DNA of 51,876 nucleotides from Methanosphaera stadtmanae (GTDB taxonomy: Archaea; Methanobacteriota; Methanobacteria; Methanobacteriales; Methanobacteriaceae): positions 64,143 to 116,018 of the forward strand of contig SUTQ01000005.1 in the NCBI GenBank assembly GCA_015062805.1, read 5' to 3'. The notes below the pieces were generated by a model. It saw nothing but the letters and a program-made list of their open reading frames with translations. It did not search any database and was not told the origin of the DNA. Shown here in pieces: positions 11,169-43,541 of this stretch (the stretch's first letter is position 1; every line of letters starts with the position of its first letter). A program made the position numbers and the translations under genes.

Positions 11169-11620
11169 AAAACCCCTTTTTAATTTATTTCCTAATATTA
11201 TTTTTGATTTAATAGATGCCTATCAATATTAGCATTAATTAAAATATCTTTTAATATTATAAATAATAGTTTATTAAAAATTATTTATTAATATTATTAT
11301 AATTTTTTAGATTTTAAATAAGATTAATTGAATTTATCTTAACTTATTGGTAATAATATGATTAAAATGATAATCTTCTATAATTTAATCTTTAACTTTA
11401 AAAACGACAAATATAAAAATTTAATTATCTTAACTCTTTTAAAATACTTTAAAATAGTAAATTAAGATTAAAAATGATAAAATAAATAATAATTAGATTA
11501 AAAAAACATTGAATTTATATAATATGATTAAGATAATTAAACATATTAACGAAAGAAAATGGAGGAACTAGAATATATTGAGAAAAAATTCTCATTAGAA
11601 AAAAAGATAATGGGGGCATA
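11169..11620. other. Divergent intergenic region with repeated TTATCTTAA motif
   Basis: No gene. It separates the DUF2162 operon (minus) from the 1120-aa adhesin gene (plus). TTATCTTAAC occurs at 11334-11343 and 11425-11434. A 13-bp element TTAATTATCTTAA at 11421-11433 has a perfect inverted copy at 11528-11540. These could be operator sites in a shared control region. Confidence 0.45.
11514..11521 (+). promoter_or_regulatory. TATA box for the 1120-aa adhesin gene
   Basis: TTTATATA matches the archaeal consensus. Transcription would start near 11545, giving a leader that includes GGAGG at 11561-11565 and GGGGG at 11612-11616. The inverted TTAAGATAATTAA element begins 7 bases downstream, between TATA box and start. 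Confidence 0.5.
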
Positions 11621-14600
11621 ATAATTAACAATAGAAAAAATTCACTAATATTTTCCTTATTAACAGTTACATTTATTTTTCTAATGATTAATGCGGTTTC
11701 AGCAATTGATAATAATATTACAGAAGAAAATAATCTAAAGACAATTGATGATAATCAGGATAGTCTAGATATAGAAAAAATAAATACGGGGATTGAAACA
11801 ACTAAAAACGATTCTAAGGAGGTAACAAAAAATAATAATCTAAATATTGCAAAGGAATCATCATCCGAATCAGAAAAGATTGACCCTGATATCAGGTTAA
11901 TAGATTCTGAGATTCATCCTGGCGTTGAAAAAACGTTCATAGCAATTCTTCCTTATGATGCAACTGGGACAGCTACATTTAGAATTAGTAAAACCACCAT
12001 CTCAAATAAGATTAAAGTCGAATATGGTATGGTGATGTATACATATAAAATCCCGGAAACATATAACAAAGAAAAGTATTACTACTATCTAATATATTCG
12101 GGGGATGAAAAGTATAATGCAAAACGAGCTAATGCTACATTAACACTTACACCTGAAGGTGGAAAAGTCAATGCAACAATGACACTAAAGAATATTACTA
12201 GTAAATATTCAGATACAATACCACTTACGGTTAAATTAAATGATACTGCAACAGGTAATGTAATCTTCAAGGTGGATGGCACTCAGATTGCAAAAGCTAA
12301 AATAAATAATGGAATTGCATCTGTTAATTATACAGGAAAATTAACTCCAGGAAATCGTACATTAACGGCAACTTATATTGGAAATTATCTCTATGAAGAA
12401 ACAAGTATAAACTCTACATTAGAAATTAGGAAGTTAAATACAAAAATAAATGTTAAAAACATTGCGGCAAAAGCGGGTAATGTTACACTATTTACTGCAA
12501 ATGTAACCGATGAATTTGGAAATGTTGCAAAGAACACGAAAGTACAATTTAGACTTAACGGTAATTTCATTGGTTCAAATACAACTAATAATGAGGGTGT
12601 AGTCAATGTCTATTATTTAATTCCTTCAAAATTATATACACAGAAAAATAATATAAGTATCAATACAATTGAAACTAAAACATTATTAAGCAGTAGTAAA
12701 GATGCAACATTAACATTGAAACAATTGAAGACCAAAACAACGGTTCCTAACATTTCCACAATACCTTCAAAAACAGTTGTCATTACTGCAACCGTAGTGG
12801 ATGAGTTTAATAATTATGTAACCAAGGGTAATGTCACTTTTGTGAAGGATAACGTGACTTTGAAGACCGTAGCTGTGTCAAACGGATTTGCGAAATTTAC
12901 CTACACAACAAATTATAAGACGGCAAACCAAACCAACATTTACGCTTACTATGTTGGTGACTGGAAATATGGAAATTCCACAGGAAAAGGTACTTTCAAA
13001 ATCACCCAATTGAAAACTACAATTTCATCAACGGCCGTAGATGCAAAACCTAATTCACAGATAACGATAACTGCGACAATCAGAGATCAGAATCTTAACC
13101 CTGCAACAGAGGGTGAGGTTAAATTTACTTTGGCAGGTAATGTTATCGGAACTTCAAATGTTACCAAGGGTGTAGCAAAAATTAAATATACATTAAACTC
13201 TTATAGTGCAGGAAATTATCGTATTCAATGTGATTATTCAGGTTCAAAGGTTTATAAAAGCTGTAGCAATAACAATACCATGACAGTTACAAGGTATTCC
13301 ACTAACATTAAGGGAGATTCAATTAACGCTGTTGTAGGTAAGGATACAACTATAACCATAACAATTAGTGACGAGGAAAAGTACAATGTAAAACATGGAA
13401 CTGTGGAATATTACATTAACAATGAGTATATTGGAAGTTCCAATGTATCAAATGGTGTTTCAAAGATAACCTATAATGTTCCTAGTAAATTTGATGGAAA
13501 AATTTTAAGATATTATGTAAATTATGAAAAGAATGATATCTATGATTCAAATTCATATACTGATACCATAACGGTTTCACATCAAAAAACCGTTTATGTT
13601 AGTGTAAACGGTAGTGACAGTAATTTGGGTGATGAATTGCATCCATTTAAAACATTGGGTTATGCGGTAAATCACATTACTCTCTTTGGTACTATCAAAT
13701 TAGGTGAAGGTACTTTTTCAGCTTCAGGAATAGTTCTGAATAATTCGATAACCATTGTTGGTAGTGGAAGGGATAAAACCATAATTGACGGATTGAATAA
13801 TGGAAAAACCATATTCAATATCACAAAAAGGAATGTTGTTCTTTCCATTAGAAGTGTAACTATAAAAAACGGTAAAAGTAATAATGAGTTTAGTGCAGGA
13901 GCAATAGTGTCTTCTGGTAAATTAAACGTTTATAGTTCAGCATTTGTGGATAATACAGCAACAGGATTGTATTCTGGTGGAGCTATTTATAGCAATGGAA
14001 TACTTAACTTAACGCATTGTAAATTCGTAAACAATGTCGTAACAAATGTCAATAGTCAAGGTGGTGCAATAAGAAGTTACAATAACATAACATATATATC
14101 CAACTGTCAATTTGATTCAAATAAGGTTACAGGTAATAATTCCACCGGTGGTTCAGTGATATATAGTGAATATTCCGATTTAATAATCAATTCAACTATC
14201 TTTACAAATAATACTGCTAAAGGTAAATATGTTACTGGTGGAGTAATTAGATGTATTTATGGGGCTATGGTAATAGACAACAGTACATTTAAACAGAATA
14301 GTATAAAAGCAACTGATTATGCGGTTGGTGGAACAATTGGTTCTATTGGTTGTGGAATATCAGTATTGAACACTTCATTCAATTCAAATAATATAGATGC
14401 AATTAATTCTGCAGGAGGATGTGCAATATATGTTGAAACTGCAGCTTTGGATATCATTGATTCAAAATTGAATTCCAATAAAATAATTACAAAAGATGGA
14501 TATGGTGGAGTAATATACGGATACTATTCCGTTGTTACTTTAAAATCTAATGAAATAAATAATAATCTCATGAATACAACAAGTAATGCTATGGGTGGAG

Positions 14601-14983
14601 TAGTATATTCCAACGGAGGAAATTTAACGGTTGATAAGACCAATTTCACAAACAATCAGGTCAAATCTAAAAACATGGCATTGGCCGGTGCAATATATTC
14701 ATATTCAAACGTTACCATAAGCAATTCAAACTTCAACAAAAACAAGGTTAATGCGACAAACATAGGTGGTGGAGCAATAGCCAATATGGGTAACTTAACA
14801 GTCAAGAAAACGAATTTCATAGATAACTATGCTTATGACTGTGGAAATGCAATTACATCAACAACTACTGCATACAATAATATAAATAATAATTATTGGG
14901 GTTCCAATAATCCAGAATGGTCCAAGTTGTTGTACAGTATATCGCAACCGAGTTCATATTCTACTACAAAAATCAATAATTAG
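11621..14983 (+). CDS. Adhesin-like secreted protein: Ig-like repeats then C-terminal beta-helix (about 1120 aa), probable ATA/ATT start
   Basis: The first ATG in frame (11684) lies inside the hydrophobic core of the signal peptide. Reading upstream gives a full signal peptide: INNRKNSL, a hydrophobic core, then INAVSA. The upstream frame is open back to a TGA at 11579 but has no ATG, GTG or TTG; ATA at 11621 and ATT at 11624 follow GGGGG (11612-11616) by 4 and 7 bases. I take 11621. Six Ig-like domains cover about residues 85-655, each with strands like GNVIFKVDGT. A beta-helix of about 460 residues follows, opened by YVSVNGSDSN and HPFKTL and filled with GGAIYS-type turns. No C-terminal anchor. 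The domain order is the reverse of the 832-aa protein. Confidence 0.82.
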   Translation: MINNRKNSLIFSLLTVTFIFLMINAVSAIDNNITEENNLKTIDDNQDSLDIEKINTGIETTKNDSKEVTKNNNLNIAKESSSESEKIDPDIRLIDSEIHPGVEKTFIAILPYDATGTATFRISKTTISNKIKVEYGMVMYTYKIPETYNKEKYYYYLIYSGDEKYNAKRANATLTLTPEGGKVNATMTLKNITSKYSDTIPLTVKLNDTATGNVIFKVDGTQIAKAKINNGIASVNYTGKLTPGNRTLTATYIGNYLYEETSINSTLEIRKLNTKINVKNIAAKAGNVTLFTANVTDEFGNVAKNTKVQFRLNGNFIGSNTTNNEGVVNVYYLIPSKLYTQKNNISINTIETKTLLSSSKDATLTLKQLKTKTTVPNISTIPSKTVVITATVVDEFNNYVTKGNVTFVKDNVTLKTVAVSNGFAKFTYTTNYKTANQTNIYAYYVGDWKYGNSTGKGTFKITQLKTTISSTAVDAKPNSQITITATIRDQNLNPATEGEVKFTLAGNVIGTSNVTKGVAKIKYTLNSYSAGNYRIQCDYSGSKVYKSCSNNNTMTVTRYSTNIKGDSINAVVGKDTTITITISDEEKYNVKHGTVEYYINNEYIGSSNVSNGVSKITYNVPSKFDGKILRYYVNYEKNDIYDSNSYTDTITVSHQKTVYVSVNGSDSNLGDELHPFKTLGYAVNHITLFGTIKLGEGTFSASGIVLNNSITIVGSGRDKTIIDGLNNGKTIFNITKRNVVLSIRSVTIKNGKSNNEFSAGAIVSSGKLNVYSSAFVDNTATGLYSGGAIYSNGILNLTHCKFVNNVVTNVNSQGGAIRSYNNITYISNCQFDSNKVTGNNSTGGSVIYSEYSDLIINSTIFTNNTAKGKYVTGGVIRCIYGAMVIDNSTFKQNSIKATDYAVGGTIGSIGCGISVLNTSFNSNNIDAINSAGGCAIYVETAALDIIDSKLNSNKIITKDGYGGVIYGYYSVVTLKSNEINNNLMNTTSNAMGGVVYSNGGNLTVDKTNFTNNQVKSKNMALAGAIYSYSNVTISNSNFNKNKVNATNIGGGAIANMGNLTVKKTNFIDNYAYDCGNAITSTTTAYNNINNNYWGSNNPEWSKLLYSISQPSSYSTTKINN

Positions 14984-15352
14984 GATTATTATATAATTCT
15001 AAGTTTTTTCCTTTTTTTTAATTCTTTTAATTGAAATGATCATATATTTTTTTTTTCGATATAATTATGGTTTATGTCGATTATTTTTGTATAATTATAA
15101 TAATTTATTAAATAAATTAATAATGGTGATATTATTAATTTTAGAATTCATTATATCTTAAAATATTCTTTATTGACAATTTTTAAGCATAATGTTTATA
15201 TATTAAGCAATTTAAATAATTTAATGTTAGTTATATTATAATATTCATCTTTTTATTAGGTTTTATAATCATTTATTTGATTATTGGTGTTGGTATATGG
15301 AATCATATAATTTTTAATAATTATTTATATTATCCCAGCATTATTAAACTAA
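14984..15352. other. Intergenic, T-rich, between two adhesin genes
   Basis: No coding signal. T-runs at 15006-15019 and 15047-15056 can end transcription from the upstream gene. Nothing in this stretch looks like the missing 5' end of the remnant that follows. Confidence 0.4.
15056..15080 (+). terminator. Hairpin after the adhesin gene
   Basis: TCGATATAA (15056-15064) pairs with TTATGTCGA (15072-15080) with one G-U pair and a 7-base loop; it sits between two T-runs about 75 bases after the stop codon. Confidence 0.35.
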
Positions 15353-17760
15353 AAATATGATTATCCTGGTGTGAGTGTTGAGATTACTGTTAATGTTACT
15401 GATGTGAATACTGGTGCTAATGTTATTGGTAGTGGTGTTGTTACTATTGGTGATGAGGTAGTTAGTGTTGTTGATGGTGTTGGTAAGTATACTTTCATTA
15501 TTGAGGATACTACTCCTGTTGATGGTGAGACTCTTACTTTCGAGTTTAGTAGTGAGGATTATGAGACTGTAAGTAATTATAGTGTTGTTAAGAGGGATAT
15601 TATTCCTACCAGTACCGTTGTAAGTGATGTTGTTGGTAGTGTTGGTGTTCCTGTTACTATTACTGCTGCTGTTGCTAGTGATAATGAACGTCCTGTAAGT
15701 CAGGGTAAGGTTACCTTTAAGTTTAATGGTGAAGTTATTGGTACTGATGATACTGTTGTTGATGGTGTTGCTAGTATTGATTATACTTTTACTAGTGTTG
15801 TTACTGATGGCGTTGTTGTTGCTGAGTATGTTGATGATTGTGCTAATGTTATCTTTGGTGATAGTAGTTCCGAAAGTGAAACTGTTCAAGTGTAACTAAC
15901 ATTGGCAAAGGTGTAGCAGTGATTGTTGCTGTTGCCAATCCTGATAGTGGTATTCCTGGTGAAACCAGTACAGTTACTATCACGGTTAAAGATAAGAATA
16001 CTGGATTGCCTATTGATGGTGAAGTAAGCATTGATGGTCAAACTCTAACTTTATCTGATGGTACTGCAACGTATGAATACACTATTCTTGATACTACTCT
16101 TCGTGCCGGTACAGTCCTTACGGCTGAGTTTACTAGTCCGGATTATGAAAGTGTAAGTGCTGACGTAACTATTTACAGATTACTAATTCCTACAACCACC
16201 GTTGTGGAACCTGTAACAGGTACTGTTGGTACTCCAACTACTGTTACAGCTATTGTAACAAGTAGTAATGGTAGACCTGTAACCCAAGGTAAAGTTACAT
16301 TCACCTATAATGGTCAAGTAATTGGTGTTGCAGATGTAACAAGTGGCAGTGACGAATCAGCTTCTGATGTTAAAACGGCTTCCCCTACAGACAGTACTGC
16401 AACTATCAGTGTTGTCTTCAATAATTCAATTAAGGATGGCCTTATAACTGCAGATTATGTTGATGATAGTGTTGGTGAACTTCAGATCTTTGATAGTAGT
16501 AGTAGTTCTGCTGATATTGATGAGTCTGGAAGAACTAATGTTGTTCCTGGTGAAGCTGTAATTACTGCTATACCTGATCCTGCTAGTGGTGTTCCTGGTG
16601 TAACGAGTGTTGTTGATATTACTGTTACTGATAGGAATACTGGATTGCCTGTTGAGGGTACGGTTGCTATTGATGGAACAAGTGTTGCTGTTGTTGATGG
16701 TAAAGGTACTTACAGCTATCCTATTACTGTGGATACCAGTCTTGAGGGTACTACCCTTACTGCTACATTCACTAGTCCTGATTACCGGGAAGTTAGTGAT
16801 GAAGTAGTAATTAGCAGACAGCTTGTTCCTACAAACACCGATGCAACAGTCATTAACAACACTGCAGGTAATGTAACAGTAAGAGTTAACGTAACCGATG
16901 ATATTAACGGAGAACCTGTTCCTTATGGTGAAGTTGACATATATGTTAACGATACACTTGTAGGAAAAGGAGAAATAGAAAACGGTACAGTTGAAATTGT
17001 TATAAATATTGATGAGCCAGGTGATTATGATATCACTATCAAATATAATGGTAATGATGTCTACACTGACAGTGAAGATGTATTGGAAAATGTTGAAGTA
17101 GTTGGTTTAGAACCAAAAATTATTAAGATTGGATTCTGGAAATTAGTATGTTTCAATTCAACACCTGAAAGAAACAATACTGATAACAATACTAATAATA
17201 AAGTTGCCAGACCGTCCAAGATAATAAAACCAACTCCAAGATATAAATCATCTGTTAAAGGTGCTTCTAAATATCAAAGAGCAATTGGCAACTACAAACA
17301 TAGGAAAGCTTCATGGAAAAAACCATCAGTTAGGCCTGTAATTCCTCCAATAAGTAAAGTTCAATACCGTCTATTCATAGTATTGTACAAAGAATACTTT
17401 GAAGGGGATATCAGTTTCTCAGACTTCGTAGCAATACTTAAACTTAATGGTATTGAAATTGCAAGTTTAAACACTTGGAATGAAAACGGTGAAATCATCA
17501 TAGATTACGATAACCTTGAAGACGTACCGGATTCAATTGAAATCATTGACAACAGTGGACATCTTGAAGATTACACTCAATCAATCAACAAGAACAATGC
17601 CCCTGATAGCAATGGTGTCATTGATTCAGGAGATGTTGAAGTAAAAGCAAAAGCATCTAATACTCAATCATCTAATGTTCCTAGCAGTTCTGGTTCACAA
17701 GCATCCAGTAACGCAGAATCTTCTGGTGATTCAGGAGTTGCAGCTGCCAGTGGAGAATAA
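15353..17760 (+). pseudogene. 5'-truncated, frameshifted adhesin-like gene remnant
   Basis: The first frame begins straight after a TAA (15350-15352) in mid-domain (YDYPGVSVEITVNVTD) with no signal peptide or SD. It runs to a TAA at 15893-15895. The protein then continues in another frame: upstream of GTG 15919 this frame reads SVTNIGKGVAVIVAV, which matches TNVVPGEAVITAI at the same place in the next repeat. One base lost near 15883-15895 explains the break. Three units of about 190-210 residues follow each other (V.ITV.D.NTGLP, TVVxxVxGxVGxP, QGKVTF.(F/Y)NG.VIG). After about 17100 come a basic linker and a Ser-rich tail ending AAASGE, with no membrane anchor. The first 1.3 kb is extremely G+T-rich on the plus strand, unlike its neighbours. 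Confidence 0.75.
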
Positions 17761-18368
17761 TTGATAATTATTCCCCGGTATTGCTTCAACAATACTTCAA
17801 AAGTCATTAAAATCTACGGATAATAATCTTAGTTAAAGATTTATTTATTATTGATTAAGTCTAAAAATACACAAAAATTAATAAAATTCCTTTTTCCTTT
17901 TTTTCTTTTTTTTATAAAAAAATAAACATGTATAATTTTTCATTTTTAAAAACAGCATAAGATTAGAATATATTTTCATTTTATTTAATGCTGAAAAATT
18001 GCTGTTGATAGTTTTATTTTCGATTCATTTTAAAATAAACATTTGATTTTGTTTTTATTTTCATTTATGAACATTTGTTGGATAGTAAAGTGGTTTTTTT
18101 TCATCATACTTTTTTATTTTAATTTACATTTTTTTAACTGTTCTAAAACAATTAATGCATAGTTCAACGTTTCTTTTTGAGTTTCAATTCTCTAAAAATA
18201 TTTTATTTTAATTAAGTGTTATTTATTCAAAAAAAGTATAGTTTTAGATTTTTTAATATTTTATTTATTCTTTAGACTTAAAAAAGAGAATAAATCATTA
18301 TATTTCTAAATATTTAAAATTAGTTTTATTATCAATTAATAATACTTATGGCTAATTATATATTAATC

Positions 18369-18395
18369 AAATATAATTTATGATAAATTATATTT
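18369..18395. repeat. Perfect 12-bp inverted repeat with TGA centre
   Basis: AAATATAATTTA (18369-18380) and TAAATTATATTT (18384-18395) are exact inverse copies around TGA, about 90 bases before the adhesin ATG. All-AT arms make chance more likely than for mixed sequence. Confidence 0.6.
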
Positions 18396-18417
18396 ATTAG
18401 ATTAATTAAATAATATA

Positions 18418-18466
18418 ATATCTTTCAATAATATTTTATATCTTATAAAAACCGGTTGAAAGATAT
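18418..18466 (+). promoter_or_regulatory. Inverted repeat flanking the TATA region of the 2203-aa adhesin gene
   Basis: ATATCTTTCAA (18418-18428) and TTGAAAGATAT (18456-18466) are perfect 11-bp inverse copies. Between them lie TTTATAT (18435-18441) and TTATAAAA (18443-18450), the best TATA candidates, which would start transcription near 18468-18473, just before the ATG at 18486. The arms would therefore cover the positions where a regulator could block or help TBP/TFB. Confidence 0.5.
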
Positions 18467-18485
18467 AATTAATTAGGTAATATAA

Positions 18486-21400
18486 ATGTTAAATAATAAA
18501 ACAAAAATGTTTTTATTGCTTACATTAATTTTCTTTACAGCAGTAGGTTTATCTGCTGTATCTGCAGCTGATTTGGATGCAGATGCAACTGATATTCCAG
18601 TTGCTACACAGGAAATCGCTGATGATAGTGATTTCAGTGTAGATACTGCTCAAAGTGATTTGAGTAATAAAAATACGCAACTAAATAAAAAGACTGTCGA
18701 AAATGTAAAGAGTGAAGGCGAAGGTACTTTTGCTGATCTTGCAAATGATATTGCAGGTAGTGAAGTAACACTCGAAAAAGATTATGTACAGGGTGAACTT
18801 GAAACTAATGTAACAATTGCTGAAAATAAGGTAATTGATGCAAATGGTAAAAGTATTACCTCACATAACGGTACATTCGTAATTAATGAAGGAGTTACTT
18901 TCACGCTTAAAAATGCAATAATCTATTCACAATATGCACCTAGTATGTCCTATCCTTTAAGACAAGCATATTACTATGATATAGATAATCATGGAACAGT
19001 TTTATTGGAAAATGTTACATTCCATTATACTGGCACTGATTTAGGTTATGGTGCACCAGTATACATGTATACTAGTTCAAATATAACTGTCAAAGATAGT
19101 ATATTTGAAGGATATGTGACTAACCAGGCAATGATTTATGGTTATAATGCAGGTATTAATATAACTGTAGATAATTCTTTATTTACCAATTATAACACCG
19201 CAAATGCAGCAATCTATATGAGAACCAGTAATAGTAATTTAACAGTTACTAACACTAACTTCACAAATGCTGGTTGGGAATATACTACTCCAGCAACTTC
19301 TTACAGTGGTCCTACTACTTACCCAACACGTATTAACTATGGTGGAGCATTGTATCTAAATAATTATCAACAGAATGCAATTATTGAAAATTGTGTGTTT
19401 GATAACATTACTTCACAATACCGTGGCGCAGCAATGTATGTAAGTGGAAACACAACAGTTAAAGATTCAACATTCAAAAATCTTAAACAAACTGCTGCAA
19501 CATATAATGGTGGAGCTATATGGGTTAACAACAACAATGGAGTATTATGCCTAGAAAACAATGTCATGGAAGACATAGTTTCAAATTCTGCTGATGTTTA
19601 CTTCTATGCTGGTAAAATAAATTCAACAGTAAATGTTGTTGGAGAAAGCCTATCCGTTAATCAGGAAGATTCTGTTGTAATATCATTTAACGTTACAGAT
19701 GATAACGGTAATAGTATTGACTTCAGAACCAGTCCGTTTACTGTAAAAGTAGATAATCAAGAAGTATCCTCATCATACGGAAACGGTACAGTAACTGCAG
19801 AGTTTTATGCATCAATGGAACCGGGAGTATACGACATTACTCTAGAATATACTACTACAAATATGTTAGGTGATGTTGTAGTTACACCTGACCTTAAATT
19901 AACAGTAATTGACATTGGTTTATACAAATATGCAAACGTAACCCAACTTATAGCAGATGCCAAATTGAATGGTCTTGTTGAAATTGATTCACTTGTAGTA
20001 AGGGGATCAGATGAAGAAAGTATTCCTATAGATAATTACGTAACCGTTGATTTCAAAGGTAACACTATAAATGCTAAAGATGGAAAAGTATTTGACATTC
20101 TTCCAGGTGCAGTAGTAACCATTAAGAATGCAAATATTATAAATGTTGGAAACCCAAGTTCAACTGCAAATGCTTACAATACTGAAGGTAGGATTGCAAA
20201 TATCACTGGTGGATACTTAACCTTTGATAACGTAACATTCCAAGATTGTAATGCTCCTAACTATGGTAGCAGTGCATCCGGAAGTTTCATATTAGTATTA
20301 TTCGATGATAGTTATGTAAAATTGAATGACTGTACAATTACCAATTGTAAAGGTACATTTATTAACTTAGTTAATGGTACTGCCGATATTGCAGGTACAA
20401 CATTTGAAAACAATGTATACTCAAGTGCAAATGCACTTATTGCTAATGGTGGTATTTTAGATGTTACAGATTCTCAATTCATCAATAACACGGTAAACAT
20501 TGCAACTATCCGTGGTCAATCCAACGCACTTTTATCAAGTGCATATGGTGGTAACCACCTATGCTTCAACCAACCTTTAACTATTACCGGCACTTTATTC
20601 GAAAACAATTATGCTGGTAGTGGTAGAGGAGCTGCAGTAAACACCAACGATGATACAACAATCACAGATTCCGTATTCATCAATAACAGAATTAACCAAT
20701 ATTCTAATAAGGGTGGAGCAGTATTCTCTGAAGAAGGTGACCTTACGATTGACGGTTGTGTCTTTGTAAACAACAGTGCAAGATACTATGTATCTTACTA
20801 TGGTGATATCACTGCTAACAACGGTACAGCTATTTACAACCAAGAAGGTAATATGAACATTAAAAATTCAATTATCGTATCTAACGTAACTGAAGCTGTC
20901 GCCGTATACAACGATGCAGAAGATGCCGAAGTTGTAGCAAACGGCAACTACTGGGGTCAAGCTGAACCTAACGGAAGATATGCTTCAGGTGATGATGCTG
21001 AAGAAATCATTGTAGACAATTGGGTAGTCTTAGGTATTACAGCAACTCCTATGGAAAATATAAACTATATGGATAACGTAACAGTTAGTGTTGGACTTAC
21101 CAAAGTTTCTGATGGTGAAACCCTAAGCGATGTAACTGAAGCTTTACCAGACTACGGATATGTTGAATTCACAGCAGATGGTGGAGCAGTAGAATTTGAT
21201 ACTGTAGATGTGGTTGATGGAGTAGCTTCAGATAAAGTGACCGCAAAATACGATCCGGTTGAAGTTATCGCATCATATCTCACTGACGGAATTGGAATCA
21301 CATTAGATGTTACAATGCCAGAACCATCAGATATCACATTAAATGATGGTAACTGGACCAAATACTTCGATGAAGAAACAGGAACTATCAACGCTGAATT

Positions 21401-33996: not shown

Positions 33997-34824
33997 TTGG
34001 GGGGTCAAAAAATAAAAGGTAAAATATATGCGTTACTTTTAATATTTATGATGTTATTTGTAGGTTTAGGAAGTATAACTGCAGCAGATACAAATCTTTT
34101 GACTGATGAAAATAACGTGTTTGTTGTAGGATTTGATTCAGATTTTCCACCATTTGGCTATGTAGATGACAATGGGGAGTACACTGGATTTGATATAGAA
34201 TTGGCAAAAGAAGTGGCAAAAAGAAATAACTGGTCGTTTGTTGCACAACCATTGCCAAGTTGGGATACAAAGGATACCGAATTAAATTCTGAAATAGTTG
34301 ATTGTATTTGGAGTGAATTAACAATAAACGGTAGGGAAAACGATTACACGTGGTCAAAACCATATTTCAACAATTCCCAAGTAGTAGTTGTTAGATCAGA
34401 TTCTGGAATTGATTCTTTGAGTGACTTAAGAAATAAGACTGTTGAAGTTCAAGAGGGAAATTCTGTATTCAATAATCTTGAAAACGATAAGAAATCATTG
34501 TCAGATTCCTTTAAATCTTTGGTCAAAATTAAGGATTACAACATGGGATTTATGGATCTTGAAACTGGTGTCTGTGATGCTATAATTGTTGATATAGGTT
34601 CAGCAAAATATCTATTGAAAGAAAAAGGTGCTTCTGGTCAATATAAAATATTGGATGAACCATTGGCATATGAAGTTTATGGAATTGGTTTCAAAAAAGG
34701 TAATGAAGAGTTAAGAAACCAGGTTCAGGATACGTTAGATGAAATGTATGCAGATGGAACAGTAGATAAAATTGCTCAAAAATACAGTAATTATGGAATT
34801 ACTGATGGGTTGTTAAGACCCTAA
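33997..34824 (+). CDS. Amino-acid-type ABC transporter substrate-binding protein (SBP_bac_3), orphan
   Basis: Signal peptide ending SITAAD, then the solute-binding family 3 fold: FPPFGYVDDNGEYTGFDIEL near the mature N-terminus, DCIWSELTINGRENDYTWSKPY in the first lobe, and a second lobe ending EMYADGTVDKIAQKYS. Such proteins capture polar amino acids outside the membrane. No permease or ATPase gene is adjacent and there is no lipobox cysteine. The start is doubtful. TTG 33997 follows AGGAAG by seven bases but puts GGGGGG inside the gene. Reading GGGGGGT (33999-34005) as the SD puts an ATA (34012) at the start position, giving (M)KGKIYALLL. Confidence 0.85.
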   Translation: MGGQKIKGKIYALLLIFMMLFVGLGSITAADTNLLTDENNVFVVGFDSDFPPFGYVDDNGEYTGFDIELAKEVAKRNNWSFVAQPLPSWDTKDTELNSEIVDCIWSELTINGRENDYTWSKPYFNNSQVVVVRSDSGIDSLSDLRNKTVEVQEGNSVFNNLENDKKSLSDSFKSLVKIKDYNMGFMDLETGVCDAIIVDIGSAKYLLKEKGASGQYKILDEPLAYEVYGIGFKKGNEELRNQVQDTLDEMYADGTVDKIAQKYSNYGITDGLLRP

Positions 34825-34839
34825 TACTTTTTTTTATGG

Positions 34840-34876
34840 GACTGTAATTAGTTATGGTCTCAGCAGTCTTTTTTTA
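34840..34876 (+). terminator. Weak hairpin plus T-run after the binding-protein gene
   Basis: GACTG (34840-34844) pairs with CAGTC (34864-34868), extendable by two G-T pairs, followed by T7. Distance to stop codon is 16 bases. Confidence 0.4.
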
Positions 34877-35033
34877 AATCATTTTTTTTATAAAATTAAT
34901 TCTATTTTTTCTAAAATAAGTTTAAACAAAAATTATGGCGTGATTTTTGATAAAAAAAAGTTATAAAAGAGTTTCAATTTTGAAATCATTTTAAGGATTA
35001 TTCAAGAATTAAACAAGGTTTTAATGCTAAAAA

Positions 35034-36357
35034 TTATTCATCTAATTTTTTCATAATTTCCATTGATACTTTAACAAGGGGATTAACAACCATAGCTAAT
35101 GAGGGAGTATATGAAAATTCTTTTTGAATGAGTTCTTCACATTTCAAGTTATCTGTTATAATGAATGATAAAACATCTATTCTTGAGGAAATATCAGCCT
35201 TGGATAACATTTGACAGCCAACAATAGTTCCATCCATTTTACAAATCATTTTAACAATTAACTTATTGTTTTTTGGATAATATCTTGCTTTTTGACATGT
35301 TTCAATACATGCAGAAACTACCGGCATTCCCATCATATTTGCAAATGATTCTGTTATTCCTGAAGAAGCATAATAATAATCTCCCACTTTGGAAACTACA
35401 GTGTTTACAACAGGATCAAAGGTTAGTTTATTTCCAGTTAAGTTTTTTGCCAGTATCATTGCTTGACGAACTGCTGTGGTACCTGCTGGTGAAAGGGTTT
35501 GTGTACCTGTCACATGGCTTTTTACTTCAACACAGTCACCAATAGCATATATATCTTCAACACTTGTTTCAAGGTATTCGTTTATTTTGACTGCAAAATC
35601 TCCGATTTCACACCTGCCTGTTTAGCTAAAAAAGTAGATGGCACTTTAGTGCTAGGTAATATGACCGCATCGGCAGTTATGCTTTTATTATTGTAATTTA
35701 TTTCCTTTTTAGAGCCATTGGTAGTTATACTTGTTACATCAGCATTTGTTTCGAAAGTCACACCGTTATTCAAATCCACTAGTTTACCAGATATTTCCCC
35801 ATCCAGGAATAATGGTAAAATGTCAAATGATTGTTCAAGAAATGTTACATTATATCCTTTATTGGATAATTCATAAGCACTTTCAATTCCAATAGAAAAA
35901 TTTGAGATAAATACAATATCTTTCTTATACTTAATTGACTTTTGTATCGCTCTTCCATCCTTGATGTTATTTAATGTAAAGACATTGGTCCTGTCATCCA
36001 CATCAAAATCCGGATCAATTAGTTGGGAACCTGTAGCTAAAACCAACTTATCATAGGTTATGCTTTCAGACTTTGAGTCTTTTTCAAAAGTAATTTTCTT
36101 ATTTTGTGAATCCACAGAGGTAACTGTGGTAGATAAATGAAGTTCTATGTTTTTTTTTAAGTAATGATTTGCATCATGCATTATAATGTCATCAAATGAT
36201 TCAATGCAACCTCCTAATACTAATGGGATTGCACAGGTGAATATGCAATATATTCACTATCTGTAAATATTATTATTTCTGATTTATTGTCGGTGTTTCT
36301 TATGTTTGAAGCCAAGGTCAATCCTGCAGCACCTGCACCTATAATTACTATACGCAT
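35034..36357 (-). pseudogene. FAD/NAD-dependent disulfide reductase-like gene (NADH oxidase / CoA-disulfide reductase family) with two frameshifts
   Basis: Joined across two frameshifts the gene gives about 441 aa, normal for the family. It starts with the FAD dinucleotide motif IVIIGAGAAGLTLAS (ATG at 36357-36355, with GGTGA upstream). The first shift is near 36234-36238, just before the redox Cys: SP|CAIPLVLGGC, equivalent to SPCGLPYYIGG. The middle piece carries the NAD-binding domain and LVLATGSQ. The second shift is near 35602-35605, before VKINEYLETSVEDIYAIGDC, the second FAD motif. The last piece is the dimerisation domain (GTQTLSPAGTTAVRQA). Both shifts equal one lost base. Intact homologues reduce O2 or CoA disulfide in anaerobes. 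Probably not functional unless these are sequence errors. Confidence 0.85.
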
Positions 36358-36543
36358 TCCTTTTCACCTTTTACGTTTACAAGTAAATATTTATTTTAGG
36401 TTATATAAATATGAATAACTTGATTTAGATTGTTAATATGGCAAACAAAATGGATGGGAATAACTTGAATAGAAAAATTTATCATATAATCTATCAAAGA
36501 AGATTTATTTACCATGAATTTCCACAGCATAGCTTCATAAATC

Positions 36544-36567
36544 ATTTTTCATTCATTAATGAAAAAT
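36544..36567. terminator. Perfect 10-bp hairpin between minus-strand genes
   Basis: ATTTTTCATT (36544-36553) and AATGAAAAAT (36558-36567) pair with a CATT loop, about 60 bases beyond the stop of the gene at 36628. No T-run follows on the minus strand, so a terminator role is unproven. Confidence 0.3.
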
Positions 36568-36627
36568 AATAAAATTAATTTTTAAAAAAAAGGATAATCA
36601 GGAGAAAATCGGGCAAATTGATTTTTC

Positions 36628-37446
36628 CTAATTGAAGTTTACGGTTTTAGTATATAATGGAGTATCATCGAAATTCTCAAATATCTGAATTTCAACTTTT
36701 ACAGGTTTGTAGTTGGATTCCTTATAATATGGAATATTTAATTGATATTTTTGATTTGCTTTAATATCAGTAAAAGTATTTGTATCATAGGTTTGATCTA
36801 TTTGTGAACCGTCTTCACCATACCAAACACCCTTAATCTGAACACTTTGAATATCTCTCTGTGATGAGAGAGTTCCCTGAACTCCTCCAGTATAATAGCC
36901 GTAGGAAACTTTTAAGTCACTACTTATGTTGGTTATATCAATTCCATTTGCCTTTTCCTGTAAGTCATTATTGTAACTGGCATCACCCATTACTCCTGAT
37001 AAGACAATCAGTATAAGTGTGATTACTGGTATAATCCAGTAAATATTATTTTTGTCAGCGTTTGTTGGGAAATTAGGGTAACGTTGTCTGATTTCCTGTT
37101 CATTACCATAAAACTTAATTTCATCAAATTTATCTGTTTTACTTCCGGATTGGTCACGTTCAATGTATGCTACTATTGCAGCAATAACATAAAAAATAAA
37201 TCCTGGAATTCCAACCATGCTGGTACCTATCAGTACACCAAGACCACTGATTATATACTGTGCAATGGCTATTTTATAATCCTTTTCAAATAGGTATATT
37301 CCTATTAATCCAAGAATACTGGCAACTAATGTAATGGAAGCATTTGTGGCAAGATCCGCACTTAATCCTGACCAGGAATATGCAACTAGAGAACCACCTA
37401 AACCAAATAAAAAAGCTAAAACAGCCATTATTGGATTAATTTTCAT
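36628..37446 (-). CDS. Membrane protein with C-terminal extracellular domain, unknown function (272 aa)
   Basis: Four membrane segments in residues 1-95, a cytoplasmic stretch of about 45 residues, one more segment at about 137-156, then an exposed beta-rich domain (about 110 residues) with YGYYTGGVQGTLSS. I know no named family for it. GTG 37455 overlaps the SD; GAGGTG followed by six bases (TCAAAA) and ATG at 37446 fixes the start, MKINPIMAVLAF. It follows the SHOCT protein gene after about 20 bases and is probably cotranscribed. Confidence 0.75.
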   Translation of the reverse strand: MKINPIMAVLAFLFGLGGSLVAYSWSGLSADLATNASITLVASILGLIGIYLFEKDYKIAIAQYIISGLGVLIGTSMVGIPGFIFYVIAAIVAYIERDQSGSKTDKFDEIKFYGNEQEIRQRYPNFPTNADKNNIYWIIPVITLILIVLSGVMGDASYNNDLQEKANGIDITNISSDLKVSYGYYTGGVQGTLSSQRDIQSVQIKGVWYGEDGSQIDQTYDTNTFTDIKANQKYQLNIPYYKESNYKPVKVEIQIFENFDDTPLYTKTVNFN

Positions 37447-37467
37447 TTTTGACACCTCATACTCTAT

Positions 37468-38031
37468 CTATAGCTTTAACAATTCTTTCTTTTTTTCTTC
37501 AAATTCTTCTTCAGTAATTATACCTTCTTTCATAAGGTTATAGAAGCTTCTAATTTCTTCGGAAACGTTTATGTTATGTTCTTCAACTTCATTTTCAATA
37601 TCGTCACTTTCTTCTTCTTTTTTAGAGATAAATTTTGAAATATTGTTGTCCGATAATGTTTTATTTGAAGAATTTCCTTGTAAATTTGTATTGTTGTTAA
37701 ACTGTCCCTTTTCTTTAATCTGTTTTATGTTATCGTAGAAGTTTTTGAATTCTAATTCGTTATCTGTACAGCTTATTTCAAACTGTTCGTTTGATATTCC
37801 CATGAAAATTTTATCGTTTGCTATGAAATTACCTTTGGAATATATTAGATAATCCAATCCATCTAATGATTTATTGATAACATTATTGGATTCAATTGAT
37901 TTTATAAGTAATTTATTACCTGATAATTCCAATGAAACTTTTCCAATGCCATTAACTTTAGCCGTATTTAATGATAATCCATTAGAATTGCTGTTACTAA
38001 TAGAATTTACTCTATTTTTAGATAAATCCAT
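37468..38031 (-). CDS. SHOCT-domain protein (187 aa)
   Basis: Residues 28-100 alternate as short strands (VSLELSGNKLLIKSI; GNFIANDKIFMGI), like a PH/bacterial PH-type domain. A polar, low-complexity linker (about 108-150) leads to a C-terminal SHOCT motif, IRSFYNLMKEGIITEEEFEE, which ends the protein. SHOCT segments are short helical hairpins found at the ends of many otherwise unrelated prokaryotic proteins and likely mediate assembly. GGTGGT precedes ATG. First gene of a two-gene unit with the membrane protein downstream. Confidence 0.8.
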   Translation of the reverse strand: MDLSKNRVNSISNSNSNGLSLNTAKVNGIGKVSLELSGNKLLIKSIESNNVINKSLDGLDYLIYSKGNFIANDKIFMGISNEQFEISCTDNELEFKNFYDNIKQIKEKGQFNNNTNLQGNSSNKTLSDNNISKFISKKEEESDDIENEVEEHNINVSEEIRSFYNLMKEGIITEEEFEEKKKELLKL

Positions 38032-38213
38032 ATTACCACCATAAACTAATTATTATTATACATAATAGTATATGATTTTGGAATAATTTATAGTTATTGT
38101 TTTAAAAAAAATATATCAAAAAAAATTTCAATGTTAAAGCTTTAATAATAATATATTTCAATTCAATTAAAGTCATATAATAGTATTTTTAAAATAAAAA
38201 AAGAATGTGGAGG

Positions 38214-39236
38214 TTAATAGGATCGCATAACACCATAACCGTTAGTACCATAATAAAAACCAGTCTTAGGTTTATTGTTCTGGCTTTCACTATAACTTAT
38301 GTATTCATTATATGCATCATCTTCAGCTTCATATATTGCATCGATTTCCTGTTTATGTCGTACATCACCAATACGGTTTTCATAGTTGGTTATGAAATCC
38401 TTCTGTTTCTGGATAAGATAATTGTCTTCAATACTAAATGTATCTATTTTAGTACCGTTAGGATAACATAAACCTACACCCCATGCGGTATAATAAGGAG
38501 GTTCCTTGAACTCAAGATACTCCGTATTGATACCACTTAAACCATACCTAAAATCAAAAGTCTTATCGGATACATAAGCAAGTCCGATAATATCTTCATC
38601 CAGTACGAAGTGTAATTCTTCATGATTTCCGATTTTATTGTGGGTTATTGCTTCAGTTAATCCTTCATCTCCCTCATAGGTTGTACTATTATGGTCCGTA
38701 TAAACAAATAACCATCCGTCAGGTATAATCTGTGGTTCGTGAGACTTATCATGTAATGTAAAGTTACCCAGAGACTTTATGACACTGTTATTGTCATCAC
38801 GCACTTCATGAACATAATACAAATGTGACTGATTATATATTTCTGTCTCGGTGTTGTTGTCAAATACTAACCCTACACCATTAAGATACTTGAACGTATA
38901 GTTTGTTTTTTCTCCAAGTATGTCTGTAGTAGCATGGTCCAGCATGTAACTGTTTCCTTCATTATCCGTCAACACAGTGTAATTCAAACCGTAGCATCCG
39001 TTAAATTTACTGGAATTGTGGTCATAGTATACGAAACTCATTTTATAATCATTTAATGTAACATTGGTCATGTTAATCAGTGGTAACGATTCTTCTTCAG
39101 CAACAAGATCGTTTGCAACAATGTCACTTGTACTTGAAGAGTTTTCGGAAACTCCTCCACCAAAGATAAAAACGATTATAATTAAAAGGCAACAACAAAT
39201 ACCTGCTGCACCTATACCCATACCGTTATCAGCTAT
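38214..39236 (-). CDS. Membrane-anchored exported protein of unknown function (about 341 aa), probable ATA start
   Basis: A short N-terminus (ADNGMGIGAAG), one membrane segment with three consecutive Cys (ICCCLLIIIVFIF), then about 300 outside residues rich in Tyr, Asn and Asp with repeated YYDHNSS / YTDHNSTTY motifs at about 70 and 180, hinting at an internal duplication. Ends GTNGYGVMRSY. AGGGGTG (39249-39243) followed by six bases (TTAAAA) puts ATA 39236 at the start; the GTG at 39245 lies inside the SD, and ATG 39221 is 21 bases away. The same SD-six bases-start layout occurs with ATG at 37446. No named family recognised. Confidence 0.7.
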   Translation of the reverse strand: MADNGMGIGAAGICCCLLIIIVFIFGGGVSENSSSTSDIVANDLVAEEESLPLINMTNVTLNDYKMSFVYYDHNSSKFNGCYGLNYTVLTDNEGNSYMLDHATTDILGEKTNYTFKYLNGVGLVFDNNTETEIYNQSHLYYVHEVRDDNNSVIKSLGNFTLHDKSHEPQIIPDGWLFVYTDHNSTTYEGDEGLTEAITHNKIGNHEELHFVLDEDIIGLAYVSDKTFDFRYGLSGINTEYLEFKEPPYYTAWGVGLCYPNGTKIDTFSIEDNYLIQKQKDFITNYENRIGDVRHKQEIDAIYEAEDDAYNEYISYSESQNNKPKTGFYYGTNGYGVMRSY

Positions 39237-39300
39237 TTTTAACACCCCTGATAAATAATTTTCAATTATTGATATAGATATTAATTAATGTATAGTCTAA

Positions 39301-39310
39301 TTATATAAAT
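39301..39310 (+). promoter_or_regulatory. TATA-like box upstream of a small membrane-peptide ORF
   Basis: TTATATAAAT, predicted transcription start near 39333, about 23 bases before the ATG at 39356. It lies in the divergent region between the exported-protein gene and the SpoIIM-like gene. Confidence 0.35.
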
Positions 39311-39355
39311 AGTTTAATAGAAATTTTTTATTAATTATTTTAACGTAATAGGTCA

Positions 39356-39433
39356 ATGGGAATATTTACAGAAACTACAGCACATATAATTGCATCTATT
39401 TCTGTTATTCTGTTTTTAATTATATATATCTAA
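39356..39433 (+). CDS. Candidate 25-aa single-pass membrane peptide
   Basis: ATG 39356 to TAA 39431-39433 encodes MGIFTETTAHII then ASISVILFLIIYI: a polar start and a continuous hydrophobic segment long enough to cross a membrane. A TATA-like box lies about 50 bases upstream; AGGT just before the ATG is too close to be an ideal SD. It could be a real microprotein or an AT-rich chance ORF. Confidence 0.35.
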   Translation: MGIFTETTAHIIASISVILFLIIYI

Positions 39434-39543
39434 AAAAATAAATAATATCTTGTATTTGATTAATATTTAAATAATCTATTTTAAGGAGTTAATTTAAGAA
39501 TTAATGAAATATTTAGGAAATATTTAAAAATCAGACGGAAAAC

Positions 39544-40170
39544 ATGCCATTAAATTTAAGTGAAATATTTGAAAAGGACTATTTAAATGGTTATTTTAAT
39601 AGAAATAAAAAAATCTTAGTATCTATCATACTCTTTATTGTCCTGGGTTCCATTGGAACATTGACAAATTCAGATACGATGGGTCTGGAAAATCCTAAAA
39701 ATCTGGCTGAAAGTGTTCAATCAAATGATGATTCTGGAAGTTATGAGGATATGTCCTTTATTGGTTTTTTAGTATTATTTATACACAACTTTATAAATGA
39801 TTTTACATGTATACTTGGTGGTTTATTCTTTTTTATTCCATCATTGCATCTTACGTTTATAAACACAACAAACATAATAACACTATTTACAAAAGGAGAT
39901 GCCATATTACTATTATTCGGAGTAATTCCTCATGGAATTTTTGAAATACCATCCAGTATATTTGCTATGGCCGGAGGATTAATGTTATTTTTAACAGAGA
40001 TAAATGTTATTAAAGCATTGATTTCCAGAAACAGTGTTAAGGAAGCTATTGATAATTTAAATGAATTAATTAAGGATGCCCTTATTAGTACAGCAATAGT
40101 ATTTGTTTTATTGCTCATTGCAGCATTTGTGGAAACATTTATAACACCAGTCTTATTGAACATGCTTTAA
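39544..40170 (+). CDS. SpoIIM (stage II sporulation protein M)-like membrane protein (208 aa)
   Basis: About five membrane segments. The family signature GVIPHGIFEIPSSIFAMAGG lies at about residues 126-145. In archaea this family (DUF95) is widespread and unrelated to sporulation; a role in membrane or envelope organisation is presumed. Residues about 45-75 form a soluble insert rich in Asp, Asn and Ser. Only a weak SD (CGGAAA) precedes ATG. Stands alone, with poly-T after the stop. Confidence 0.85.
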   Translation: MPLNLSEIFEKDYLNGYFNRNKKILVSIILFIVLGSIGTLTNSDTMGLENPKNLAESVQSNDDSGSYEDMSFIGFLVLFIHNFINDFTCILGGLFFFIPSLHLTFINTTNIITLFTKGDAILLLFGVIPHGIFEIPSSIFAMAGGLMLFLTEINVIKALISRNSVKEAIDNLNELIKDALISTAIVFVLLLIAAFVETFITPVLLNML

Positions 40171-40355
40171 TTATATTCAATATTTCACCCCCAGTAAACT
40201 TTTTTTTCATGCTTAAAATAATATATCAAAAGCCTTTAGGTTAAATTGGGTATTGCTCTAAAGATTTAATTATAATTATCAAGAGTATTGATTTATGATA
40301 GGATAATATTATTATTAAAGAGTATTTTTTTTAAAAATAAGATAGGGAGGTGAAA

Positions 40356-40733
40356 TTATACTGTTATATTTGCAGTATAATTGTTTGTATTGCCAGCTTT
40401 ATCTGTAAATACTACTTTTATTTCATGATTTCCAGATATCAAATCCAGTAAATCATATATAATCAATGATAAATCATCAGTTGTTGTACCATTAAATACT
40501 AATTTTCCATCAATATAAACCAATAATGTTCCATTTATAAAGTTTTGATTAAATATTTCATTCAATCTTGTTAAATTCAAGTAATTTACTTTTTTAGTTG
40601 GTACATTATATTTTAAGATATGTTCTACTTTTTTAAAGTTTTTAATTGTTTTTTGATGATTTCTGTTGTAATTGGATACTTTTATGTCATCCTTTGTATT
40701 TGCTGGTTCATCTTCAAAATCTATGTAATCATA
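40356..40733 (-). pseudogene. C-terminal Ig-like tail of the protease-adhesin, cut off by an in-frame TAA
   Basis: Same frame as the protease gene and open from the codon after its TAA (40736-40734) to a stop at 40356. It reads YDYIDFEDEPANTKDD, a basic linker, then an Ig-like domain (GTLLVYIDGKLVFNG, then GNHEIKVVFTDKAGNTN). Translation would resume only by read-through of TAA or weak internal starts. Full-length product would be about 1061 aa. Confidence 0.7.
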
Positions 40734-43541
40734 TTAGTAAGTTTCTTCAGTATCAGGATTAAAGATTTTTATCTCGTATTTGTCATCTTTCAATGGAGTA
40801 TTTAATGTTGCTACTCCCAATTCATTTGTTTTCAGATAGTATTCCTGATTGTTAACTGTTACAGTCACATCCGAGTCTTTAAGATTCTTACCTAGTTTGT
40901 CGTATAATGTAACAGAGTAACCAATTCTTGAATTTTTATTATTGTTTGTTTTTATGGAAGATGAATCTACCGTATATAGTTTTATACAAGTTGTTTGATC
41001 TTTACCTGCCAAGTCATACCAGTTTCTATTATTTGTTGAGTAAGATGTTGTCTTATCTTCGATGTATTGTCTGCATTCTAATTGTAGTGGTGCTAAGTTA
41101 CTTCTTATTTTAACTGTGACTAAATCATTGGTTTTTACTGGAATGTATCTGTTAAGTTTAATTGTTGTGTATCCGTTGAAGGGACTTGAACCTGATTGGG
41201 CGTGTTTTAATTGTCCGTTTACGTATATGTAGATGTCATATTTTATTCCTTTATTGTTAAAGTATGTTCCAACTGCAGCTAAAAGGTCATTGTCAACCAT
41301 GGTATATCTATTTAAATAATATATTTCCTTTTTGTTATTAGGAATTAGATAATCATCTGCACAACCCAATATATCGTTTTGATAATTTTTGTTGTAGTTT
41401 ATGGTATTGTTTATTATATAGACAATTCCATTTTGTTTTAAGAGTGTATGATCATAATAGGATATGTAATAGTATCCTCTATCTCCCCAGGTTGTTCCAT
41501 AACTATTTTTTACAATCCATGCTCCATTACCTGCAGGTGTCGTTGCAAAATTGTATCTGCTGTAATTATCATTCCAGCCTACTATTGTTACTGCATGGTT
41601 AGGAGAATTGATTGAAGTATCATAGAATGCAGCTGTTTTTGGATTATATTTAAATTTATTATTATAATCTGCATTAATGACTGTATAAACTCCACCATAT
41701 TTGTAAATAGCTTCTTTAATCGGTCGGATATTTCTAACGTTTTCAGCAGCTTTTAAAATCATCATGTCCTGTATATGTACAGTTTCTTCAATGTTTGAGA
41801 AATCCGTTACTTTAACATATTCATCATAGCTATCGTATTCGGATGGATATGTTCCGAGCCAACTCAATAAACTTCCTGTTGGAGTATTGAAGTGGGAAAG
41901 TTCACTATCTTTTAAAGAACCATATTTTGAATATTTAATCATACTATTGAATATTATGTTCTCGCACAAGTCATAATTCATTTTTGTAGTTTTTAGAATT
42001 GATGATTCTATAGCTGCACAAGTTGCAAAGGCCCAGCATGAATTTTTTGAACCCTGGTTTTTGACTTTAGTTACATAACCTAATTTACGGTAATCATAAC
42101 TGCTTGGTAGGCTGTTGCCTTTTGGAATAGGATTAACAATATTGAACTTAATTCCTTCACCGATAACGTATGTTGAATAATCACTGTTTTTCAATGATAT
42201 TTTATCATTATTTAATCTGTTGTTATTGTAGAAATTACCTGGACTGAAAACTGCATGAACAGCAATTTTATTTGATTTAAAGTTATTTGATCCAATATTA
42301 TATTTTGAATCATAAATTTCAACAGCACTTTCTCCCGTATTGGAGTTAAATGTTGATGAATAAAGATCTAAATATCCTTCATCAAAATATATTGCTGATC
42401 CACTATAACCTGATATGATATTTTTATTATTATCAAATAAGGAATTCTTTACATTTAATGTAGCATATGAAGTATAAATTGCTCCACCATCATATATTGC
42501 CCTATTTTTTATAAATTTACAGTTATCAACAGTTAATTTTCCATCTAACTGAAGTATAGCTCCACCAAAACCACTTAAACAATCTGTAAAGTTGGAATTT
42601 CTAATTACGGTGTAACCATTGTGTTTACCCACACCATTAATATCAACGAATATAGATCCACCATTGTTTTGGCTAGTTACATTTTTGAATAAACAGTTAT
42701 TTACTTCGAATTCATTGTCGAGTTCTTTTACTATTATTGCTCCACCAGTAAAATCGCTTTTTAAATTAATGAATTTACAGTTTTGAATATTCAATTGATT
42801 GTCAGCAAATATTGCAGCGGAATATTTTGAGGATATATCCTTAAATGTTGAATCAGTTACCTTTATTGAAGAACTGCCTAAACTTGATATAACACCCTTT
42901 TCCAATTTGTGTTTAGTCTGTACATAAACCTGTTTCACATTGATTTTGGATTTATAAGAACTGATTATACCTTCAGAGTTACTTTTACAGTTTATGAACT
43001 TATCATAATTACTGTTATATGTGCATTCATTTGCAAATACAACACCTGCATTGGATGTTTGACAATTATTGAATGTAACGTTTATTGTTGTTACACTAGA
43101 ATTCGGATTGATATAAATTGCTGTTCCACTATAATGGTTTGCATTGTTCAATACCATATTTTTTAGAACGACATTTGTACCATATATATCAAATATTCTG
43201 GCTTTACCATCAGCGTCAATGGTATGACCTTTTCCATCTATAACATAATTACTTTTCTTTACAACTATTCCGTTTCTATCGTCTTTGCGGGAGTACTTGT
43301 AATTTTTATTAAGTACGAGAGTTCTGCTTGTACTATTAATCTCTTTACTTAATTTTGTTAAACTGTTGTCATCATATCTATTATAATTTGTGGAACCAAT
43401 TACATCAGATTGACTACTTTTTGATAAGGTAACGTCGCCCGTATCATTATTGGTCGCAAAAGTTACTGTTAAACTTAAAATTAAGATAATCATAAGCATT
43501 AAAAATAAAATTGCTTTATTAACAATTACCTTTTTTCTTAT
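40734..43541 (-). CDS. Secreted papain-like (C1A) cysteine protease fused to an N-terminal beta-helix (about 935 aa), truncated at the C-terminus
   Basis: Numbering from ATG 43499. Residues about 50-405 form a beta-helix with GGAI/GGSI turns. The C1A domain follows at about 450-690: oxyanion Gln482 and Cys488 (NQGSKNSCWAFA), His635 (SPNHAVTIVGW), Asn665 (WIVKNSYGTTWG). A lectin-like module comes next at about 700-830 (YDIYIYVNGQLKHAQSG), then the start of an Ig-like domain cut by TAA. ATG 43499 lies inside the signal peptide; codons upstream add RKKVIVNKAILFL, and the only start-like codon there is ATA 43541 (GGAGGT is 15 bases before it). Likely acts outside the cell on wall or host proteins. 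The triad is complete, so activity is plausible despite truncation. Confidence 0.85.
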   Translation of the reverse strand: MRKKVIVNKAILFLMLMIILILSLTVTFATNNDTGDVTLSKSSQSDVIGSTNYNRYDDNSLTKLSKEINSTSRTLVLNKNYKYSRKDDRNGIVVKKSNYVIDGKGHTIDADGKARIFDIYGTNVVLKNMVLNNANHYSGTAIYINPNSSVTTINVTFNNCQTSNAGVVFANECTYNSNYDKFINCKSNSEGIISSYKSKINVKQVYVQTKHKLEKGVISSLGSSSIKVTDSTFKDISSKYSAAIFADNQLNIQNCKFINLKSDFTGGAIIVKELDNEFEVNNCLFKNVTSQNNGGSIFVDINGVGKHNGYTVIRNSNFTDCLSGFGGAILQLDGKLTVDNCKFIKNRAIYDGGAIYTSYATLNVKNSLFDNNKNIISGYSGSAIYFDEGYLDLYSSTFNSNTGESAVEIYDSKYNIGSNNFKSNKIAVHAVFSPGNFYNNNRLNNDKISLKNSDYSTYVIGEGIKFNIVNPIPKGNSLPSSYDYRKLGYVTKVKNQGSKNSCWAFATCAAIESSILKTTKMNYDLCENIIFNSMIKYSKYGSLKDSELSHFNTPTGSLLSWLGTYPSEYDSYDEYVKVTDFSNIEETVHIQDMMILKAAENVRNIRPIKEAIYKYGGVYTVINADYNNKFKYNPKTAAFYDTSINSPNHAVTIVGWNDNYSRYNFATTPAGNGAWIVKNSYGTTWGDRGYYYISYYDHTLLKQNGIVYIINNTINYNKNYQNDILGCADDYLIPNNKKEIYYLNRYTMVDNDLLAAVGTYFNNKGIKYDIYIYVNGQLKHAQSGSSPFNGYTTIKLNRYIPVKTNDLVTVKIRSNLAPLQLECRQYIEDKTTSYSTNNRNWYDLAGKDQTTCIKLYTVDSSSIKTNNNKNSRIGYSVTLYDKLGKNLKDSDVTVTVNNQEYYLKTNELGVATLNTPLKDDKYEIKIFNPDTEETY

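Follow-up and report, generated by a model that had tools for sequence, protein, structure and literature searches.

Why would several genes for exported or surface proteins, lying close together in one archaeal genome, appear to begin at an isoleucine codon? The question was raised by a stretch of 51,876 nucleotides, here called the window, which sits on contig 17 of a 50-contig, 2.1-Mb genome (99.9% complete) of Methanosphaera (Archaea, Methanobacteriaceae) and has a G+C content of 30%. The original prediction had proposed ATA starts for four genes of this region, referred to below as genes A to D, and had explained them by deliberate low-efficiency initiation or by a lineage-specific tolerance. 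All four odd codons and the G-runs that precede them are present exactly at the positions given. Few events in prokaryotic gene evolution are as rare as the rise of an AUU start: across 36 genome groups, a switch to AUU was found for 1 of 61,358 ancestral AUG starts (PMC5622118). We compared the window with 19 further Methanosphaera species, whose genomes are partly MAGs, and used one genome of the same family (G022) as an outside-genus control.

Gene A (11624..14983, plus strand) encodes an exported protein of 1119 aa with bacterial Ig-like repeats (Pfam Big_3_5) and has orthologues in about 18 Methanosphaera genomes. Its frame is open from 11582 and, as had been predicted, lacks a canonical start upstream, the first ATG, GTG or TTG being ATG 11684, within the hydrophobic core. 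The SD, GGGGGC (11612..11617), would pair with the anti-SD through one G-U and occupies the same place as GGAGGT in the orthologues L111-L119. The call of an isoleucine codon stands, but the proposed ATA 11621 is one codon too early; the orthologous and probable start is ATT (11624..11626), at 6-nt spacing. Orthologue leaders carry GGAGGT, or a version of it with a G-U pair, followed at 6 or 7 nt by ATT, ATA or ATC (collectively AUH). This arrangement recurs in 13 orthologue loci beyond the window (11-13 species), 11 of which read clearly, with ATA in L105, ATT in L111-L116 and L119, and ATC in L117, L118 and L120; ATG occupies the start position in none of the clearly read orthologues. L104 and L109/L110 follow the same pattern, yet also carry an in-frame ATG or GTG upstream (ATG at -5 in L104, GTG at -2 in L109). 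In L112, L113 and L119, an in-frame TAA is followed by one codon and then by ATT, and the next ATG, GTG or TTG lies 98, 123 and 90 codons downstream, respectively, beyond a complete signal peptide that has AISA or VSA at its end. Because of the upstream TAA and the lack of any canonical codon before the signal peptide ends, non-canonical initiation is unavoidable in these three genes if their proteins are exported.

In most pairs, the codons right after the gene A ATT showed the most third-position changes or shared the top value; some close-pair leaders are equally conserved, and this synonymous-substitution signature weakly favours a start at that codon. The leaders of L112-L120 contain GGAGGTTAA, and in several of them an in-frame stop codon immediately adjoins the SD; in the close pairs L117/L118 and L115/L116, conservation is higher in the leader than in the opening codons of the gene. 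A common leader hairpin is not supported, as folding z-scores were mixed (0.1 to -3.2) and the structures differed. Downstream of gene A, a pair of neighbouring Ig-like adhesin ORFs (15353-17757, plus strand), each in its own frame, join near 15880-15892 without a convincing start, and this segment looks like a broken surface-protein gene.

Gene B (34012..34824, plus strand) encodes a signal-peptide-bearing solute-binding protein of family 3 (Pfam SBP_bac_3), whose best named match, at 86% identity, comes from a Methanosphaera MAG. The predicted layout is exact, with the SD GGGGGGT (33999..34005) followed by 6 nt and the putative start ATA (34012..34014). The orthologues L021 and L002 retain the ATA within GGGGGT TAAAAC ATA AGA, whose in-frame TAA, two codons before the ATA, makes a start further upstream impossible in both. 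TTG 33997, which had been named as a real alternative, is in frame in the window but blocked in the sister L021; there it cannot be the ancestral start, because the in-frame TAA follows the SD before ATA. Two further orthologues (L022, L023) have GGAGGA, 6 nt and ATT, and the more distant L024 has ATG. Near gene B, a pyridine nucleotide-disulphide oxidoreductase (35037-36253, minus strand) is split over two frames, its N- and C-terminal Pyr_redox parts overlapping near 35585-35621, and represents either a frameshifted gene or an assembly error.

Gene C (38214..39236, minus strand), coding for an N-terminally anchored protein of 340 aa with no Pfam match, probably starts at ATA (39234..39236). 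The prediction had overlooked an in-frame GTG three codons upstream (39245-39243), which overlaps the SD GGGGTG (39243..39248). Relative to the SD, ATA 39236 has a better position than this GTG, and it aligns with TTG in the relative L044, and L046 has an ATG nearby; set against this, GTG 39245 is an ordinary alternative that is shared by L045, where both the ATA and the upstream GTG are present.

Gene D (40734..43541, minus strand) encodes an exported papain-like cysteine peptidase (Pfam Peptidase_C1 and Lectin_like). As claimed, canonical starts are absent upstream and ATG first occurs in the hydrophobic core, 14 codons further on; the 15-nt distance between its SD, GGAGGT (43557..43562), and the candidate start ATA (43539..43541) was also correctly described and departs from normal SD spacing. 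At 6 nt from the SD stands an in-frame AAT (43550-43548). The closest relative, L083, shares the SD, the GGAGGTTGATATAATTTTT and the 15-nt distance, and has ATT exactly at the position of the window's ATA; a twofold palindrome in the gene D spacer is not conserved in L083. Among the other relatives, a G-rich SD is followed at 6-8 nt by ATC in L075 and L076, L077 has ATA and then ATG, and the gene in G006 carries a stop codon.

TTT at the start position was seen in L166:5649-9020 (minus strand, G009), an intact gene for an exported Ig-like protein of 1124 aa with a perfect SD, whose leader reads GGAGGT GCAATAA TTT with TAA directly upstream. The gene A orthologue L122 has lost its spacer, and TTT now stands at the normal spacing. 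UUU starts are possible in both genes.

The statistics draw on 20-kb stretches that add up to about 1.77 Mb for four Methanosphaera genomes and to 0.4 Mb for a genome of another genus in the family. We counted in-frame codons lying 5-8 nt downstream of a six-base SD and took shifted spacings of those SDs as the control. In the exported-type ORFs of the four genomes, ATT was observed 16 times against 2.5 expected and ATC twice against 0.25, and the canonical codons behaved similarly (ATG 41 vs 3.25, TTG 8 vs 0, GTG 4 vs 0.5). ATA, whose SD-spaced count had been proposed as a check, occurred 5 times against an expectation of 5.5. In other ORFs, SD-spaced ATT was found 14 times where 31 were expected. 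The excess of SD-spaced ATT is hence specific to exported ORFs, and ATA as a general start is unsupported statistically, leaving individual conserved ATA cases only. On a stricter reading, 11 of the 23 SD-AUH matches in exported-type ORFs are free of canonical codons ahead of the core; several of the remainder, including an ATT directly before ATG, look like chance. What had been observed in the window is sound as to the codons themselves and extends to an excess of ATT in the four sampled genomes, but not to ATA, which is not above chance, and for gene C the GTG competes.

A second test ignored the SD and collected ORFs of at least 400 codons in which the stretch from the preceding stop to the hydrophobic core is free of canonical codons. 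Of these 20 ORFs, 13 carry AUH at a distance of 4-9 nt from an SD that is 5 or more bases long. The other seven comprise gene D, L166:5649-9020 and five ORFs (L212, L214, L162, L177 and 45327-46577 of the window) that, by inspection, resemble cytosolic genes whose leaders contain a core by chance. A six-base SD was present in 12 of the 20, compared to 20 of 82 canonical exported ORFs (Fisher p 0.006). The forced set from the 0.4-Mb sample of G022 contained no AUH case, and the candidate L190 of G022 does not establish the same habit there, as an upstream ATG is present and its context was not found in any other genome of the family. A genome-wide count of GGAGGT-6-ATTAAR proved too noisy for comparing genera; it exposed, however, the family described next.

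Family E consists of exported proteins with Ig-like repeats and a transglutaminase domain (L147, L238), with the start context GGAGGTTTTATAATTAAG. When GGAGGT-6 nt-ATT was searched with the third start base left free, 17 matches were obtained in 16 of the 20 genus genomes, every one of them with ATT. A leader element, TATCCAAATTAT, lies just upstream of the SD in seven genomes, and at L147:16534-16572 and L238:3791-3830 it is followed by the identical 18-mer GGAGGTTTTATAATTAAG; leader and 18-mer together suggest a constraint at the RNA or DNA level beyond the start codon.

The original prediction had described the unusual starts for surface or exported proteins, but the class is wider: an LEU1-type isopropylmalate/citramalate/homocitrate synthase (TIGR02090), a ferredoxin/nitroreductase fusion and a HycI-type hydrogenase maturation protease also have AUH. 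Over 15 genomes, the synthase start reads ATT in 11 and ATA, ATC, TTG and ATA-ATG in one each, G015 and G009 having been seen in full context and the rest being pattern matches; the window's own genome has ATT. ATG follows ATA in G017 and adjoins the same residues in G009. In G015, the start is ATC and the first canonical codon comes at 116, so that this gene, like L112, L113 and L119, has no usable ATG, GTG or TTG. AUH takes the place of a canonical start of orthologues in the synthase (ATT or ATC against TTG) and in the ferredoxin fusion, which reads ATT AAA CAT TTA in G003 and ATG AAA CAT TTA in G000, the proteins being 75% identical. In the HycI-type protease of G009, ATA directly follows a stop codon. 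For family E and gene A, a non-AUG codon is conserved across species, and this conservation suggests that AUH starts are kept on purpose. Taken together, the proposed lineage-wide use of isoleucine-codon starts is backed by conservation over about 20 Methanosphaera genomes, with two corrections: the genus samples and the orthologues show AUU, not AUA, to be the preferred codon, and the genes concerned are not those of surface proteins only.

We also inspected the initiation machinery. The initiator tRNA anticodon loop, GGGCTCATAACCC, is unchanged in all 10 Methanosphaera genomes searched, ruling out a changed initiator anticodon; a differently built second initiator would fall outside this search. 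In another genus, G152:C77:5089-5101 is an initiator-loop match with AAU for CAU (GGGCTAATAACCC) that exists besides a normal copy and may be due to chance. In E. coli, the AUU start of infC serves autoregulation by IF3. An infC-type autoregulation of the archaeal fidelity factor was rejected, because aIF1 itself, present as one ordinary copy, begins with ATG in G015, G003 and G022; neither extra aIF1 copies nor a non-AUG aIF1 start were seen there.

On balance, we think it likely that AUU, and less often AUA and AUC, are real start codons in a set of genes, mainly for large exported proteins of the surface and cell wall, whose output is kept low by selection. In such a mechanism, a strong SD about 6 nt upstream would place the 30S subunit on the AUH codon, where the ordinary initiator Met-tRNA (CAU) would pair with A and U and tolerate the third-base mismatch, the protein still beginning with Met. 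Selection would hold the start codon sub-optimal, yielding a low production rate despite the strong SD. From the sequences we infer all three elements of this account, namely initiation at AUH, its inefficiency and the benefit of low output. In S. aureus, the output from AUU and AUA starts that have extended SDs is about 10% of that from AUG (PMC13009471). Considering this value, and that AUU persists at sites where a single substitution would turn it into AUG, deliberate low-efficiency initiation appears plausible. The weakness of the start is read as selected because ATT, one base away from ATG, is maintained without exception in family E, and low output is probably what AUH starts are for. 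Restraining peptidases and transglutaminase-type proteins, which may cut the pseudomurein wall and one of which carries pseudomurein-binding repeats (Pfam), would protect the cell. As a counterpoint, the strong SDs could signal a drive to high rather than low output. Against the account also speak the background level of ATA, the exported-type matches that look like chance, the AAT or TTT found at normal spacing behind strong SDs in gene D and L166:5649-9020, and the lost spacing of L122.

A further-reaching idea, which we put forward tentatively, is that AUH starts form a translational regulon, in which surface, cell-wall and some metabolic genes would be moved together by initiation fidelity, the supply of aIF1, Met-tRNAi or aIF2 jointly raising or lowering AUH use. 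Archaeal aIF1 destabilises complexes on non-AUG codons (PMC6237735, PMC8211752), and AUH genes should therefore be sensitive to it.

Doubtful, in our view, is a passive origin, according to which relaxed recognition in an AT-rich genome would allow ATG to erode into AUH at any gene whose initiation is rescued by a strong SD, without any benefit. Variation of the same gene between AUU, AUA, AUC, TTG and ATG, as in the LEU1-type synthase and genes B and C, would fit such drift, as would the involvement of cytosolic genes. Yet the commonest expected decay is the transition from ATG to ATA, whereas ATT dominates and ATA stays at background, and neither the unbroken series of ATT within an identical 18-mer in family E nor the lack of ATG in clearly read gene A orthologues is expected from decay. 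It is far less probable still that the true starts lie elsewhere, at an internal or upstream canonical codon or beyond a frameshift, with AUH being incidental. In-frame options do exist, among them GTG 39245 for gene C, TTG 33997 for gene B and the upstream ATG and GTG of L104 and L109, but the TTG of gene B meets a stop in its sister, L112, L113 and L119 offer nothing before codon 90, internal initiation would remove the signal peptide, and SD and spacing point to AUH in 13 of the 20 blindly selected ORFs. Errors in sequencing or assembly, or surface-protein genes in decay, for which the broken window neighbours at 35037-36253 and 15353-17757 and the stop in the gene D relative of G006 might speak, are a negligible explanation, as the same starts recur across species in independent genomes, including the near-complete one- or two-contig G003, G009 and G015, before intact long ORFs.

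The proposed low output from AUH starts has counterparts in Bacteria. The staphylococcal genes cvfC1, ccpN, citZ and infC likewise combine AUU or AUA with a strong SD and are conserved among relatives (PMC13009471); that system is bacterial and comprises a handful of genes, whereas Methanosphaera is an archaeal genus with many, mostly exported, candidates that use AUC as well. In E. coli pcnB, an AUU start limits expression, according to a title cited in PMC13009471. The AUU start is common to E. coli infC and pcnB and the Methanosphaera set; limited expression is known for the former and would be expected for the latter. The E. coli cases are single regulatory genes under IF3, whereas Archaea have aIF1 instead, for which no autoregulated start was seen. 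In the open-licence literature we found no natural archaeal gene class with AUH starts, though an earlier report is possible. Most of the AUH genes encode proteins of the adhesin-like kind known from Methanosphaera and Methanobrevibacter (PMC11532034), with an N-terminal membrane anchor, Ig-like or beta-helix repeats and transglutaminase domains; we found no mention of unusual starts in that paper's passages on them.

Gene finders limited to ATG, GTG and TTG would clip the signal peptides of these proteins, or misplace the start of an enzyme such as the LEU1-type synthase. This matters for studies of methanogen surface proteins as targets for vaccines or in host interaction. A genus that keeps AUU in many genes offers a natural setting in which to study the purpose of weak starts and the way the archaeal ribosome selects its start. 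Should the regulon exist, the choice of start codons would let the cell alter its envelope together with part of its metabolism.
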